The notes under the pieces are model-generated. The model made no database searches. It was not told the origin of the DNA and saw only the letters and a program-made list of their open reading frames with translations. This document shows positions 42,226 through 47,044 of a stretch of 64,000 bases of DNA, in pieces. Numbering within the stretch: position 1 is the stretch's first letter; each line of letters starts with the position of its first letter. Position numbers and translations under genes: made by a program. Source of the DNA: Halosimplex litoreum (lineage in GTDB: Archaea > Halobacteriota > Halobacteria > Halobacteriales > Haloarculaceae); the NCBI RefSeq assembly GCF_016065055.1, contig NZ_CP065856.1, positions 3,223,836 through 3,287,835 on the forward strand, written 5' to 3'.

Positions 42226-43467
42226 ATGATGTACAGGGGACAGGGGGTTTCGAGAGTCGTAGCGAGCGCCGTGCTGGTCGTCTCGGCGGTGTGTGCCGGT
42301 GTTCCGGTCGCGAACGCGACGGGCGCGGGCGGTCCGGACGACGGGGGGAACGAATCACCGCTGGCCGACGCGGGACTGGACCGGACCGTCTCGACTAACA
42401 CGACGGTGTACTTGGACGCGACGGGGTCTCGCGACCCCGATGGTGAGGTCGACGACTACCGGTGGCGGATCGAGCTGCCCGACGGGACCTACGGGACACC
42501 GTCGTGCGAGCGGTGCGGGCGGACGACGTTCGTGCCGCGTGCGACCGGGACGTACAACGCGACGGTCACGGTCACCGACGGGGACGGCGCGACCAGTACC
42601 GACACGCTGCGGGTCCACGTCGAGGCGTCGAACGGTCCATCGGTGATGCTCTCGGGACCCGAGAGCGTCACAGAGGGTCGCGTCGCGGAGTACTCGGCGA
42701 CGCTAGCGGCCGGCGCGAACGACCTGGCGGGGGCGCTCTGGGAGGTGGACGACCGCAGAGTGAATCGGACGGTTCTGACGGGTGAGAGCGCGACCAGTGA
42801 GCAGACGGTGGGGTTCAGACGCGCCGGGCAGTTCACGGTCAGAGTCACGGTGGTCGACCGACTCGGTCGCGAGCGCACGGCGACGAAGAACGTGACTGTC
42901 ACCGAGCCTGCAACGTCCGGCGTGGGTAGCGGTGGCGACGACGGGTCGGAATGTTCGCATTTCAACAGGGACGACGACCGGTACTGTCACCACGATAGTA
43001 TGACGATCGACAACCAGGGTATCGTCATCTCCGACGCCGACAACGACGATACGACCGAATGGGCTGGCGTCACCCTCGACGAGGAGTTCGCGCAGAACCA
43101 CGAGGGCGTGTCGTACGACTCTATCGACGACGTCGCGACGTTCGAGAGTAAAGAAGCGTACAAGGAAGCGTTAGGGGTAGATTCTGCGAACGTGGATCCA
43201 GATTCTGATGTAAACTCGCGAACTACAGACGCCACTAATGGACAAACAAATAATAATTCGTTCAGTCAGAACAGCTCTGATGACGGATCTGAACAGAATG
43301 AAGAAAAATCAGATGAATCAAATGAGATGCCTGACAGAGTTTCTGATAGAATAGATCGAATGAGGGGCTCAAATTCGTTAGAGAGAGACTCTAATAGAGG
43401 AGATTACACAACCGAAAGAACCGGACGCGTGCCTCTCCGCAAAGATAACGGTGGGCCTCGGTTTTAA
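42226..43467 (+). CDS. Secreted PKD-domain protein with AT-rich 3' end
   Basis: 413 residues. Sec-type signal peptide (VVASAVLVVSAVCAGVPVANA), a first PKD domain (about 45-135: ADAGLDRTVSTNTTVYLDATGSRDPDG), a second PKD-like domain (138-230: TVRVTVVDR), then a hydrophilic region. Up to about base 43150 the DNA is as GC-rich as its neighbours; the last 100 codons are AT-rich and encode a low-complexity Ser/Asn/Asp/Glu tail. The protein is extracellular, maybe an adhesin or surface-layer-associated protein. The tail may have been acquired from foreign DNA. Confidence 0.82.
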   Translation: MMYRGQGVSRVVASAVLVVSAVCAGVPVANATGAGGPDDGGNESPLADAGLDRTVSTNTTVYLDATGSRDPDGEVDDYRWRIELPDGTYGTPSCERCGRTTFVPRATGTYNATVTVTDGDGATSTDTLRVHVEASNGPSVMLSGPESVTEGRVAEYSATLAAGANDLAGALWEVDDRRVNRTVLTGESATSEQTVGFRRAGQFTVRVTVVDRLGRERTATKNVTVTEPATSGVGSGGDDGSECSHFNRDDDRYCHHDSMTIDNQGIVISDADNDDTTEWAGVTLDEEFAQNHEGVSYDSIDDVATFESKEAYKEALGVDSANVDPDSDVNSRTTDATNGQTNNNSFSQNSSDDGSEQNEEKSDESNEMPDRVSDRIDRMRGSNSLERDSNRGDYTTERTGRVPLRKDNGGPRF

Positions 43468-43472
43468 AATAT

Positions 43473-44312
43473 ATGAAAAAAATTATTAATAGCGAACAAT
43501 CGCGGATGGTGAAATTTGCATTGGTTCTATTCGGACTGTTGTTTACGATTGTGATTGTCTCAGTGTATTCTGGTTTAATTCCCTCACTTAGCATCTATTC
43601 AAATGATATGGAAGATCCAACTAAAACTTTGACTTCTACAGAAGGCAATTCGAATACGCCAGCAGAAACAGCACCGGATCCGATCCCAAGTACAGTACGT
43701 TCTCCTACTCAGTTCCAAAAGTCCACACCTATTCAGACTCCAACCCTCTCATCGACACCAGTTCCAACACCTCGACCGACCGTGTCTCCAACAGCAACAC
43801 CGGCCCCGACACTAACACCGACACCCACAAGTAAATTTTCGAACAAAAAATATGATGAGTTTGTAGGGGCGGTCTTTGGGGAAACAGAGGTTGATACTGG
43901 AGTCCCGATCAGGATCCGTGCATGGAGTGTCGCGGAAGGAAATTCATTGATTGTAGTTTTAAATTTGACATCGGAATCGAGAAATGATGCTAGAAGGGCC
44001 AAGGAAGTGAATACGCTTGCCACCAGCGGATATGTACAGGCGGTTGCTCACCACGACCTAGAAAGGATTAATGGTAAAATAACAGATAGGCTACGGATCG
44101 CGGAAGTGAACAACACTGGTGCCCAGCCAAAGACCCTCGTTGTCAACACATCACTTGCACGAGAATATTATACGGGTCAGATCGATGCGGCAGAATTCAC
44201 CGAAGAGTACTGGAAAACTGAGCGAAACATGACGGCTGACGAGATAGAATACGTATACAATATGGATAGCAGGACAGGAAATCAAACGCTCTACAATGGG
44301 ACCGGCGACTGA
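43473..44312 (+). CDS. AT-rich unknown secreted/anchored protein
   Basis: 279 residues, starting five bases after the PKD gene. One transmembrane helix (FALVLFGLLFTIVIVSVYSGL), a long Pro/Thr/Ser linker (about 50-122, PTPTP-type repeats), then a globular domain of about 150 residues that is not recognised. The codon use, with many A/T third positions and AGA/ATA codons, is unlike the rest of the window, so it is likely acquired. The globular domain has WKTERNMTADEIEYVYN near its end. Function unknown. Confidence 0.72.
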   Translation: MKKIINSEQSRMVKFALVLFGLLFTIVIVSVYSGLIPSLSIYSNDMEDPTKTLTSTEGNSNTPAETAPDPIPSTVRSPTQFQKSTPIQTPTLSSTPVPTPRPTVSPTATPAPTLTPTPTSKFSNKKYDEFVGAVFGETEVDTGVPIRIRAWSVAEGNSLIVVLNLTSESRNDARRAKEVNTLATSGYVQAVAHHDLERINGKITDRLRIAEVNNTGAQPKTLVVNTSLAREYYTGQIDAAEFTEEYWKTERNMTADEIEYVYNMDSRTGNQTLYNGTGD

Positions 44313-44369
44313 TCTTACAGATCAGAACTAGTATATCAGTCATATTCCATTGCTAAATTATTCTTTAGC

Positions 44370-44380
44370 TAATATATATC
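44370..44380 (+). promoter_or_regulatory. TATA box of the proteasome pair
   Basis: TAATATATATC is about 30 nt upstream of ATG 44406, at the end of the AT-rich patch. It is the likely promoter of the beta-alpha pair. Confidence 0.55.
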
Positions 44381-44405: not shown

Positions 44406-45128
44406 ATGACGTTATCCGACTTCGGTCTCGCGGACGGCGGCCGACTCCACGAACTGTCGCACGACCACCTCTCGAAAACCGAACAGATCGACCACGACGC
44501 ACCCACGTTCGATACGGGGACGACGATCGTCGCGATCGCTGCGGACGACGGGGTGGTGATGGCCGCGGACCAACGGGCGAGTCTCGGCGGGCGGTTCACC
44601 ACGAACAAGAACGCCGAGAAGATCTCGCGGGTCCACCCGACGGCCGCGCTGGCGATCTCGGGGTCGGTCGGTCCGGCCCAGATCCTGAGTCGGTCGTTGC
44701 GGGCCGAGACCACTCTCTACGAGTCCCGACGAGAGAAACCGATGAGCATGCGCGCCCTCTCTCGGACCGCGGGCCATCTCGTGCGCGGGTTGCCGGTCGC
44801 GCCGATCCTCGCCGGCGTCGACGCCGAGGGCGGACACGTCTACGAACTCGACGGCGGCGGGAGCGTGATGGCGACCGACTACGCCGCGGGCGGGAGCGGG
44901 ATGCAGGTGGCCTACGGCGTGCTCGAACGGCGGTTCGACCCCGGGGCTACGCTCGACGAGGCGACCGAAGCGGCTGTCGACGCGGTCGAAGCGGCGAGCG
45001 AGCGTGACACCGCCAGCGGCAACGGCGTGACGGTGGCGACGATCACGGGCGCGGGGGTCGAAATCCGAGGGATCGACGACGGTCGAGACGCGCCGAGCCG
45101 CGACTTCACGGGGGAGGAGGTGGCCTGA
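44406..45128 (+). CDS. psmB: Proteasome beta subunit
   Basis: 240 residues. The propeptide ends at Gly38 and the mature chain starts with Thr39 (DTG|TTIVAI), the catalytic nucleophile. Asp55 is mature residue 17; the Lys of NAEK is at mature 34, one later than the usual Lys33 because the loop GGRFTTNK has one extra residue. The GSVGPAQ and SLRAET regions are typical for haloarchaea. It forms the inner proteolytic rings of the 20S proteasome. Its stop overlaps the ATG of the alpha gene (TGATG). Confidence 0.93.
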   Translation: MTLSDFGLADGGRLHELSHDHLSKTEQIDHDAPTFDTGTTIVAIAADDGVVMAADQRASLGGRFTTNKNAEKISRVHPTAALAISGSVGPAQILSRSLRAETTLYESRREKPMSMRALSRTAGHLVRGLPVAPILAGVDAEGGHVYELDGGGSVMATDYAAGGSGMQVAYGVLERRFDPGATLDEATEAAVDAVEAASERDTASGNGVTVATITGAGVEIRGIDDGRDAPSRDFTGEEVA

Positions 45129-45886
45129 TGCAGTCGAACGACCAGCAGGCGTACGACCGCGGCGTGACGGTCTTCTCGCCGGACGGTCGGCTATATCAAG
45201 TCGAGTACGCACGCGAGGCGGTCGAGCGCGGCAGTCCCGCGGTCGGCGTCGCGACCGACCACGCGGTGGTGTTCGCCGCTCACGTCAGCCCGCGGTCGCC
45301 GTTGATGGAGCCCGATAGCATCGAGAAAGTCCACGACCTGAACGGACGGCTCGGGGTGGCCACCGCGGGGCACGTCGCCGACGCGCGGCGGCTCGTCGAC
45401 TTCGGGCGGCAGTTCGCCCAGCGCGAGCGCCTACGCTACGGGGAGGCCCCGGGTGTAGAACCGCTCTCGAAGGCCGTCGCCGACCGGATCCAGGAGTTCA
45501 CCCAGACCGGTGGAACACGACCGTTCGGGGCCGCGCTGCTGGTGGGCGGCGTTCCGGAGGCGATCCCGGCGGTCGAGGGAGGCGCAGATCCCGACCCGCG
45601 GCTCTACGAGATCGACCCCTCGGGAACGCCCACCGAGTGGCGCGCGACCGCGGTCGGCCGCGGGAGCGACGCCGTCCGCGACCACCTCGAAGCCGAGTAC
45701 TCGACGGGGCTGGACACCGGTGCGGGCGTCTCGCTCGCGCTCACCGCGCTGGCCGAGAGCACCGGGGAGTCGCCGACCGCCGAAGAGATCGACGTGGCCG
45801 TACTGGACGGGGACGGTTTCGACGCGCTCGACCGCGACCGACGGGCGACCGCGCTGGCCGACGCAGGACTCGACGCGGCATCGTGA
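45128..45886 (+). CDS. psmA: Proteasome alpha subunit
   Basis: 252 residues. It starts with the conserved gate region YDRGVTVFSPDGRLYQVEYAREAV; later AGHVADARRLVDFGRQFAQ and TRPFGAALLVGG are family features. Compared with the haloarchaeal alpha subunits I remember it is somewhat divergent in the middle (DPDPRLYEIDPSGTPTEWRATAVG). It forms the outer ring and gate of the 20S particle and is coupled to psmB by a one-base overlap. Confidence 0.93.
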   Translation: MQSNDQQAYDRGVTVFSPDGRLYQVEYAREAVERGSPAVGVATDHAVVFAAHVSPRSPLMEPDSIEKVHDLNGRLGVATAGHVADARRLVDFGRQFAQRERLRYGEAPGVEPLSKAVADRIQEFTQTGGTRPFGAALLVGGVPEAIPAVEGGADPDPRLYEIDPSGTPTEWRATAVGRGSDAVRDHLEAEYSTGLDTGAGVSLALTALAESTGESPTAEEIDVAVLDGDGFDALDRDRRATALADAGLDAAS

Positions 45887-45916: not shown

Positions 45917-47044
45917 TCAGGACTCGGCGGTCCCCGACTCCGCGGCGTCGTTCGCGTGCACGCCCTCGGTGTCGTCCGTCGACACCGCCGCCGAGTCGCT
46001 GTCGGCGTTCGCGTCGACGGGTCCCCCGTCGTCGGCTGGTTTGCTCGCCGTCGGTCCGTCGTCGTGGGACTCCCGGCGGTGGTCGACGACCCGTCCGTCG
46101 CCGGCGACGTAGCAGACGAGGTCGTCCCCGTCGAGGCGGACGCTGACGACGATACACCACGGGTCGCGAGAGACGACTCGCTCGCGCCACTCGCTGCCGA
46201 CGTTCCAGATAGGGCGGTCGCGCACGTCGCTGTCGTGGTCGTGATAGAAGGCGACGACCGCCGGGTGGTCGAGCAGTGTCAGTGCGATCGGGCAGCGCAG
46301 GTCGGCGCCGCAGGTCTCACAGCCGTAGACCGCCTGGACCGGGACGTACTCGTCGTTCCCCCGTCGCTCATCGGATACCCGTTCGTCGCGCTGGTCCCCC
46401 TCGCTGTCGCAGCCGGCGACTGGTTCGATCCGGGTCGAGACGGGTCCGGCGCACTCGGGGCAGACGCCCTCGCCGAACGAGTCGATGCGTCGGCGGTGGT
46501 GGGCGTCGATGGCGTCGGCGAACTCGTCTGAACCGCGGTCGGCGTAGCCGCCCGGGGGGAGCGAGAGTCGAAGGACGGTTCCATCGCAGCGCTCGCAGCC
46601 GACCTCGGTGACGTTGTCCGCGACGGCGGCGACGAGCCCGTCGTCGTCACAGAGCGGACACGGCTCGGTCAGGTCGACGGGGTCGCGGTCGACGCTCGCG
46701 GTGTACGTGTCGGCGGCGACGGCGCGGGCGACCGAGCGGCCGGCGTCGGTCAACTCGTAGCGCTCGTCCGCCCGCTGGCGGACGAACCGGTCGGTGAGCT
46801 GGCGGAGGTGGTAGGCGAACCCGGCGGAGGTGTCAGCGTCGGTGGCCTCGACGAGCTCGGAGAACGCGCGAGGCGACGCCGCGTCGAGCGCGCGGACGAC
46901 GGCCAGCCGCGTCTCCCCGCCCAGGGCCCCGAACGCGTCGCTCGGTGCGGGGGCATCGGGATCCTCGGCGTCGCTCGCGGTGGCGTCGGCGGAGCCGCGG
47001 TCCGGCGCTCCGCACCCGTCCTCGTCTCGCCGGCCGTGGGACAT
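45917..47044 (-). CDS. Winged-helix protein with zinc ribbons
   Basis: 375 residues. Residues 35-110 are an ArsR-type winged helix (DAFGALGGETRLAVVRALD, then SFSELVEATD-like and YHLRQLTDRFV). Next come several CxxC pairs: CPLC, CERC, CPEC and CETCGADLRC, likely two zinc ribbons. The C-terminal 60 residues are disordered and Asp/Ser-rich. It is a probable haloarchaeal transcription regulator (similar to DUF7351 proteins, from memory). It faces the proteasome genes convergently; target unknown. Confidence 0.75.
   Translation of the reverse strand: MSHGRRDEDGCGAPDRGSADATASDAEDPDAPAPSDAFGALGGETRLAVVRALDAASPRAFSELVEATDADTSAGFAYHLRQLTDRFVRQRADERYELTDAGRSVARAVAADTYTASVDRDPVDLTEPCPLCDDDGLVAAVADNVTEVGCERCDGTVLRLSLPPGGYADRGSDEFADAIDAHHRRRIDSFGEGVCPECAGPVSTRIEPVAGCDSEGDQRDERVSDERRGNDEYVPVQAVYGCETCGADLRCPIALTLLDHPAVVAFYHDHDSDVRDRPIWNVGSEWRERVVSRDPWCIVVSVRLDGDDLVCYVAGDGRVVDHRRESHDDGPTASKPADDGGPVDANADSDSAAVSTDDTEGVHANDAAESGTAES

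Follow-up and report, generated by a model that had tools for sequence, protein, structure and literature searches.

Transcriptional control directed at an alternative proteasome, or at the proteasome genes themselves, is known from the mammalian immunoproteasome, yeast Rpn4 and animal Nrf1. The factors involved there are unrelated to the candidate regulator described below, and those systems work by subunit exchange or by control of the whole set, whereas at the locus studied here there is one private putative operator per alpha-beta pair. Among the haloarchaea, Haloferax volcanii likewise has several 20S core subunits, namely alpha1, alpha2 and beta (psmA, psmC and psmB), and the composition of its proteasome changes with growth phase, according to the available excerpts of PMC2910475. 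Of its three core subunits only alpha is duplicated, and the same excerpts describe no linked beta-alpha pair with a regulator and an operator. A linked alpha/beta operon (Nmag_0515-0514) was reported in 2012 for Natrialba magadii, where it stands beside separate alpha and beta genes as it does here, and the excerpts available from that report do not discuss its regulator or operator (PMC3403918). The benefit or proteolytic effect of alternative archaeal subunits is mostly unknown, as stated in the accessible part of a 2026 review (PMC13022661). In the open-licence literature, a search of titles and the starts of abstracts gave no description of a beta-alpha module with regulator and operator, and a text search gave no mention of DUF7351.

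We analyzed a window of 64,000 nucleotides from Halosimplex litoreum, in which positions 44406-45886 hold an intact proteasome beta gene followed by a co-directional alpha gene. The two genes overlap by one base, as the first-pass annotation had read them, in a TGATG junction whose shared base belongs both to the stop codon TGA and to the start codon ATG. The pair consists of:

44406-45128, forward strand: psmB3, divergent proteasome beta subunit of 240 amino acids, predicted Thr1 codon at 44520-44522
45128-45886, forward strand: psmA3, divergent proteasome alpha subunit of 252 amino acids, overlapping psmB3 by one base
45116-45122, forward strand: GGAGGTG, a Shine-Dalgarno-like site for psmA3 within the end of psmB3, identical in 7/7 Halosimplex loci

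The overlap, the GGAGGTG and the element upstream of the pair are identical across the seven near-complete Halosimplex genomes. A tight junction, from an 11-base overlap to a 3-base gap, was found in all 77 beta-alpha loci that were scored out of 84, taking the Met nearest the YDR motif as the alpha start. Out to 80 kb from the pair there is no AAA ATPase gene (PF00004). Between the ApbC gene and psmB3 (42226-44312 of the window) there is a gene for a PKD-domain protein and a gene without Pfam match; relatives of both lie just 5' of the pair in 6/7 Halosimplex loci, the exception being G005.

The genome of H. litoreum (G000) is a single contig of 4.16 Mb, 99.67% complete, and six of its genes score above the PF00227 cut-off. 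Besides beta3-alpha3 these are:

C1:3777705: alpha1, a lone gene
C1:3711163: beta1, a lone gene
C1:1102894-1104214: alpha2-beta2, a linked pair with an 8-base overlap if beta2 starts at MSRF

Six PF00227 matches were also counted in each of the seven near-complete Halosimplex genomes, and a 71% complete genome of the genus has four and is without the beta3-alpha3 pair. Thus psmA3 and psmB3 are not the only alpha and beta genes of the organism. The first-pass annotation had suspected a second, dedicated proteasome of different specificity, and had placed the main alpha and beta genes of haloarchaea apart. The main genes alpha1 and beta1 do stand alone, and a dedicated extra set is still the best reading, but the set is the third in this genome and its linkage is not unusual. 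Linked alpha/beta pairs are common in haloarchaea: of 99 betas of related genomes, in a set partly biased toward beta-alpha pairs, 36 stand behind an alpha, 30 stand ahead of one and 33 are lone genes.

Both products of the locus belong to the proteasome superfamily. psmB3 reached 152 bits against PF00227, and psmA3 148.1 bits (cut-off 22.4 for both) together with 50.7 bits against PF10584, which is likewise a match. The annotation of both subunits as somewhat divergent was borne out. psmB3 scores 189 bits against the NCBIfam equivalog model TIGR03634, whose cut-off is 224, and classifies by that rule as a divergent paralogue of the superfamily rather than an equivalog; psmA3 scores 254.9 bits against 287.35 for TIGR03633 and passes the subfamily model NF003075 (269.7 vs 219 bits). 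Identity is 55.7-56.3% between beta3 and the other two betas of the genome, and 51.2% between alpha3 and the other two alphas.

The beta active site had been annotated as intact, and it is: T1, D17, K33, S129, D166 and S169 are retained in 7/7 Halosimplex beta3 sequences. T1, D17 and K33 were found in 83 of the 84 betas of beta-alpha pairs (the test allows Asp or Glu at position 17, and the remaining row has a gap), and S129, D166 and S169 in 82 (two gaps). The one-residue insertion before the catalytic Lys, noted earlier, is present, but as a mark of a special enzyme it was ruled out, since beta1, beta2 and nearly all betas in the alignment carry it too; it is absent from five readable betas of family f4, and two rows have one residue more. 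In alpha3 the YDR gate motif, Lys66 and Gly80, which we take to serve the docking of ATPase HbYX tails, are present in 7/7 Halosimplex sequences, and YDR with K66 in 83 of 84 alphas of beta-alpha pairs (one gap), so that wherever a beta-alpha row is ungapped at these positions, all these beta residues, YDR and K66 are present. Because the active-site and docking residues are kept, an alpha3-beta3 particle should be catalytically active and accessible to the usual ATPases. Beta positions 31, 35, 45 and 46, which, judged from the Thermoplasma enzyme, presumably fall within or beside the S1 pocket, differ between the betas of beta-alpha pairs and the lone or alpha-beta betas; at position 46 all of the latter have V or A, and 55/84 of the former have S. 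With its S1-pocket region altered in this way, the particle may prefer other residues.

Phylogenetic trees set the beta-then-alpha pairs apart from the other proteasome genes. In an unrooted beta tree, 33/33 lone and 35/36 alpha-beta betas made up one starred clade of 68 rows, with 30/30 beta-alpha betas outside it. The alpha2-beta2 pairs of haloarchaea, whose genes are also linked and overlapping, thus differ from beta3-alpha3 both in their opposite order and in having a beta that groups with the main betas in 35/36 cases. The beta3 of the window falls in a group of 23 rows from three families (support 54, with an inner 19-row clade at 97), matched in a smaller alpha tree by a 23-row clade with support 99. 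In that smaller tree the beta-alpha alphas of G021, G100, G015, G011 and G018 stand among the main and alpha-beta alphas.

For rooted trees we added loci found via the regulator gene described below, as well as outgroup sequences (13 beta, 17 alpha rows) taken from other families of the phylum. One low-scoring fragment was left out of the analysis, the rooted beta tree used 178 of 181 rows, and the beta rows L279-L281, shortened by domain extraction, were scored only where letters exist. In the rooted beta tree, 81 of the 84 beta-alpha betas, five beta-only rows and the beta of G170 formed one clade (SH-aLRT 85), beside which lay the main and alpha-beta betas (support 91); the beta-alpha betas of G015, G100 and G118 fell outside, and supports are moderate and branches long. 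Only the larger rooted alpha tree united all 84 beta-alpha alphas, in one clade (92) that also took in the G170 alpha and an unlinked G026 alpha. In AU tests on a 49-row subset, a single clade of its 19 rows of beta-alpha and beta-only type was not rejected (p 0.54). A single clade of its nine Halosimplex betas was rejected (p 4e-6), which rules out a recent duplication within Halosimplex.

Mean pairwise divergence was 1.30 and 1.47 for the two genes of the pair, compared with 0.36 and 0.58 for the main genes. In the 23 genomes that hold both module and main subunits, alpha and beta of the pair also diverge together, with r 0.86 and, once the main subunits are controlled for, a partial r of 0.79, a value reached in 0/2000 permutations; joint inheritance or linkage could be part of the cause of this correlation. 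In phylogenetic terms the beta-then-alpha pairs are an old, fast-evolving paralogous lineage, and the check that the first-pass annotation had proposed, a tree of all subunits, places beta3 and alpha3 outside the main-gene clades.

The stronger evidence for a dedicated system comes from two elements that were missing from the first-pass annotation, a putative operator and a candidate regulator. Upstream of psmB3 we found:

44353-44368, no strand assigned: palindromic putative operator CTAAATTATTCTTTAG, CTAAA-N6-TTTAG, present with at most one mismatch in 91/92 scorable module loci
44369-44379, forward strand: TATA-like element CTAATATATAT directly 3' of the palindrome, in a conserved CTAACA-rich stretch, with a presumed promoter role

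CTAAA-N6-TTTAG is common to all seven Halosimplex promoters. It was first noticed in that genus and then tested on loci chosen via proteasome or regulator genes, where the consensus CTAAAATATATTTTAG before the beta gene was perfect at 81 and had one mismatch at 10 of 92 loci; the remaining locus (L235, in G091) is clipped and starts too late to show it. There are 93 module betas in all, and the one outside the 92 rows, a truncated row from a MAG (L134), has no Thr1 motif, but its locus has a perfect palindrome. After the palindrome comes the CTAACA-rich stretch and then, at a median of 36 nt, the ATG of the beta gene, so that the position of the TATA-like element fits a leaderless or near-leaderless transcript, presumably made from a single promoter for psmB3-psmA3.

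None of 68 control promoters (35 of alpha-beta pairs, 33 of lone betas) had the palindrome at up to one mismatch. In the H. litoreum genome the 20-base form has its sole exact match at this promoter, and the 16-base form matches exactly at two other places. Across 32 whole genomes the exact pattern occurred at 33 places, 19 of them at the module promoter, 8 elsewhere in the 20 module genomes and 6 in the 12 genomes without a pair; 19 of the 20 module genomes had it perfect at the module promoter, and G360 had it with one mismatch. The exact consensus 16-mer occurred in 12 of the 32 genomes, once each and always at the module promoter. The pattern is not enriched genome-wide (33 matches vs 55 of a reversed control pattern in the 32 genomes); it is its place that counts and not its frequency. 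Its absence from the control promoters, together with only 14 other exact matches in the 32 genomes, rules out a general promoter element.

The second element faces the pair from the other side:

45917-47044, reverse strand: gene for a DUF7347/DUF7351 protein with a winged helix and eight invariant cysteines, the candidate regulator, convergent with psmA3

The gene product passes PF24042 (151.8 vs 31.2 bits) and PF24038 (85.2 vs 27.6 bits). Such a gene lies convergently behind the pair in 30/30 beta-alpha loci found via proteasome genes only, and in 0/115 control loci with lone or alpha-beta genes, the control loci being shorter (average 4.0 kb) than many module loci. The alpha2-beta2 control loci thus have neither the DUF7351 neighbor nor the palindrome, unlike beta3-alpha3. 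The linkage is kept where ApbC and moaA, the neighbors in Halosimplex, no longer adjoin the pair, which rules out mere inherited synteny.

A profile of the linked subfamily (A3) scored at least 308 bits in 87 of 392 genomes sampled from the order, and the next-best score was 270. Starting from the DUF7351 gene, we reached either the whole pair or one gene of it in 86 of these 87 genomes. Both genes were found in 77, a beta alone in 8, an alpha alone in 1 (where the flank ends) and neither in 1 (G014), nine genomes having been entered into this tally by hand. Both regulator and pair are visible in 81 loci (78 genomes), always convergent, with a gap below 100 bp in 60 and up to 2.3 kb; larger gaps were found in G266 (3.6 kb) and G199 (12 kb), both with the palindrome present, and in G398 (about 5.3 kb). 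Proteasome genes led to 30 of the 93 module betas, a phylum sample to that of G170 and the regulator to the rest, so that for most of them the regulator linkage is by choice of sample.

Eight genomes of family f4 have a beta without linked alpha beside the regulator; at these loci (L268, L270, L273, L276, L277, L279, L280 and L281) the 5' palindrome and the convergent regulator are kept and the linked alpha is gone. Contig 10 of the 81% complete genome G014 (L337/L239) has a linked-subfamily regulator; no pair was found in the stretches retrieved, nor any palindrome in the genome. In G170 (L338) the pair and a perfect palindrome are present and the convergent neighbor matches the profile in the winged helix only; the C-terminal part of this regulator seems to have changed. 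G223 contains proteasome gene fragments and a partial second regulator copy (C9:48739-49128, C37:64296-64683, C14:1356-2003), perhaps a decaying second module.

DUF7351 proteins form a family with up to 14 copies per genome. The presumed recognition helix reads T/N-x-AGF-x-YHL in 77/89 linked-subfamily ORF rows above 300 bits (some genomes counted twice), whereas 17 paralogue ORFs have other forms, such as DSAQFNYHL. All eight cysteines are invariant in an 11-row alignment. A predicted model of the regulator (mean pLDDT 75) contains an ArsR/MarR-like winged helix (best Z 11.4, rmsd 2.1 over 83 residues), and the VIA-align rows cover mainly this part and barely the cysteine-rich part. With the whole model Foldseek gave no PDB match under E 0.001. 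Against the ArsR/SmtB model NF033788 the protein scores 22 vs 55 bits, so that the likeness is one of winged-helix fold only. We consider the DUF7351 protein probably to be the dedicated transcription factor of the operon.

The module is also found on a plasmid, with a perfect palindrome, in Halomontanus rarus (NZ_CP119800.1, L356); this plasmid is 402 kb long, the module lies near an orc1/cdc6 gene, and the beta is annotated as an alpha. On the Natrinema thermotolerans plasmid CP031304.1 (L355) an alpha-beta pair immediately precedes the gyrB and gyrA genes.

Taken together, the sequences show the gene order and overlap of the pair, its separate lineage, the conservation of the putative operator and of the regulator linkage, and catalytic and presumed docking residues that are intact. 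We interpret the locus, with a probability of roughly 0.7, as an alternative 20S proteasome beta-alpha module with a private operator, most likely controlled by the DUF7351 protein. How the subunits are used could still differ. It is a serious possibility, at somewhat less than even odds, that under some condition beta3 and alpha3 replace beta1/beta2 and alpha1/alpha2 in mixed rings. The 2026 review, in its accessible part, has archaea mostly making one core particle and adding alternative subunits under changed conditions (PMC13022661), and in H. volcanii alternative alphas alter the composition of the particle and alpha2 protein is up in stationary phase, as given in the available excerpts of PMC2910475. 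The conserved core residues of the pair, and the beta kept without linked alpha in eight genomes, are in line with such an exchange. Subunits of the mammalian immunoproteasome are likewise exchanged into particles. A separate particle is instead suggested by the co-divergence of alpha3 and beta3 beyond that of the main subunits, by their much stronger divergence compared with the main genes, and by the apparent translational coupling at 77/77 scored junctions.

It is unlikely that the DUF7351 protein is not the regulator, some other factor reading the palindrome and the linkage reflecting, say, an adaptor function or ancestral gene order. Such a role would suit a multi-gene family whose linked member is convergent with the operon and outside it, lies kilobases off in some genomes and has a large cysteine-rich C-terminal part. 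The linkage, however, survives the loss of ApbC and moaA adjacency, the linked copies form a discrete subfamily (at least 308 vs at most 270 bits) with a recognition helix unlike that of the paralogues, and a winged-helix fold is predicted for the protein. We regard it as improbable that the pair is an ordinary redundant duplicate drifting without special role; the patchy spread (regulator subfamily in 87/392 sampled genomes) and the stronger divergence of the pair would agree with drift, but catalytic and gate residues as well as the operator and its spacing are kept across families.

Under the preferred reading of a DUF7351-controlled module, psmB3-psmA3 would be one instance of an old haloarchaeal module, translationally coupled and served by one promoter, with the DUF7351 protein binding the palindrome as a dimer. 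Archaeal activator sites often lie just upstream of the TATA-like element. As the palindrome is directly 5' of this element and not over the start, activation of a weak promoter by the regulator is likelier than repression. A signal, perhaps redox or metal sensed via the eight conserved cysteines, would switch the operon on; beta3 would then mature to Thr1 and, mostly in partnership with alpha3, build a distinct core particle whose S1 pocket is altered; the PAN/Cdc48 ATPases that open the main particle would open this one as well. More tentatively, and with just under an even chance, we propose a switchable alternative proteasome whose default state is off or low until its dedicated winged-helix regulator, acting at a single genomic site, turns it on; the regulator's cysteines would sense the very stress cleared by the particle.

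As the module has a single operator, a single candidate regulator and a single coupled pair, it makes the role of alternative subunits directly testable, and loss or induction of the regulator should alter a single particle type only. The palindrome also provides a simple sequence tag for spotting the alternative proteasome in further genomes. If our reading is true, archaea would possess a transcriptional switch with one target that governs an entire type of proteasome.
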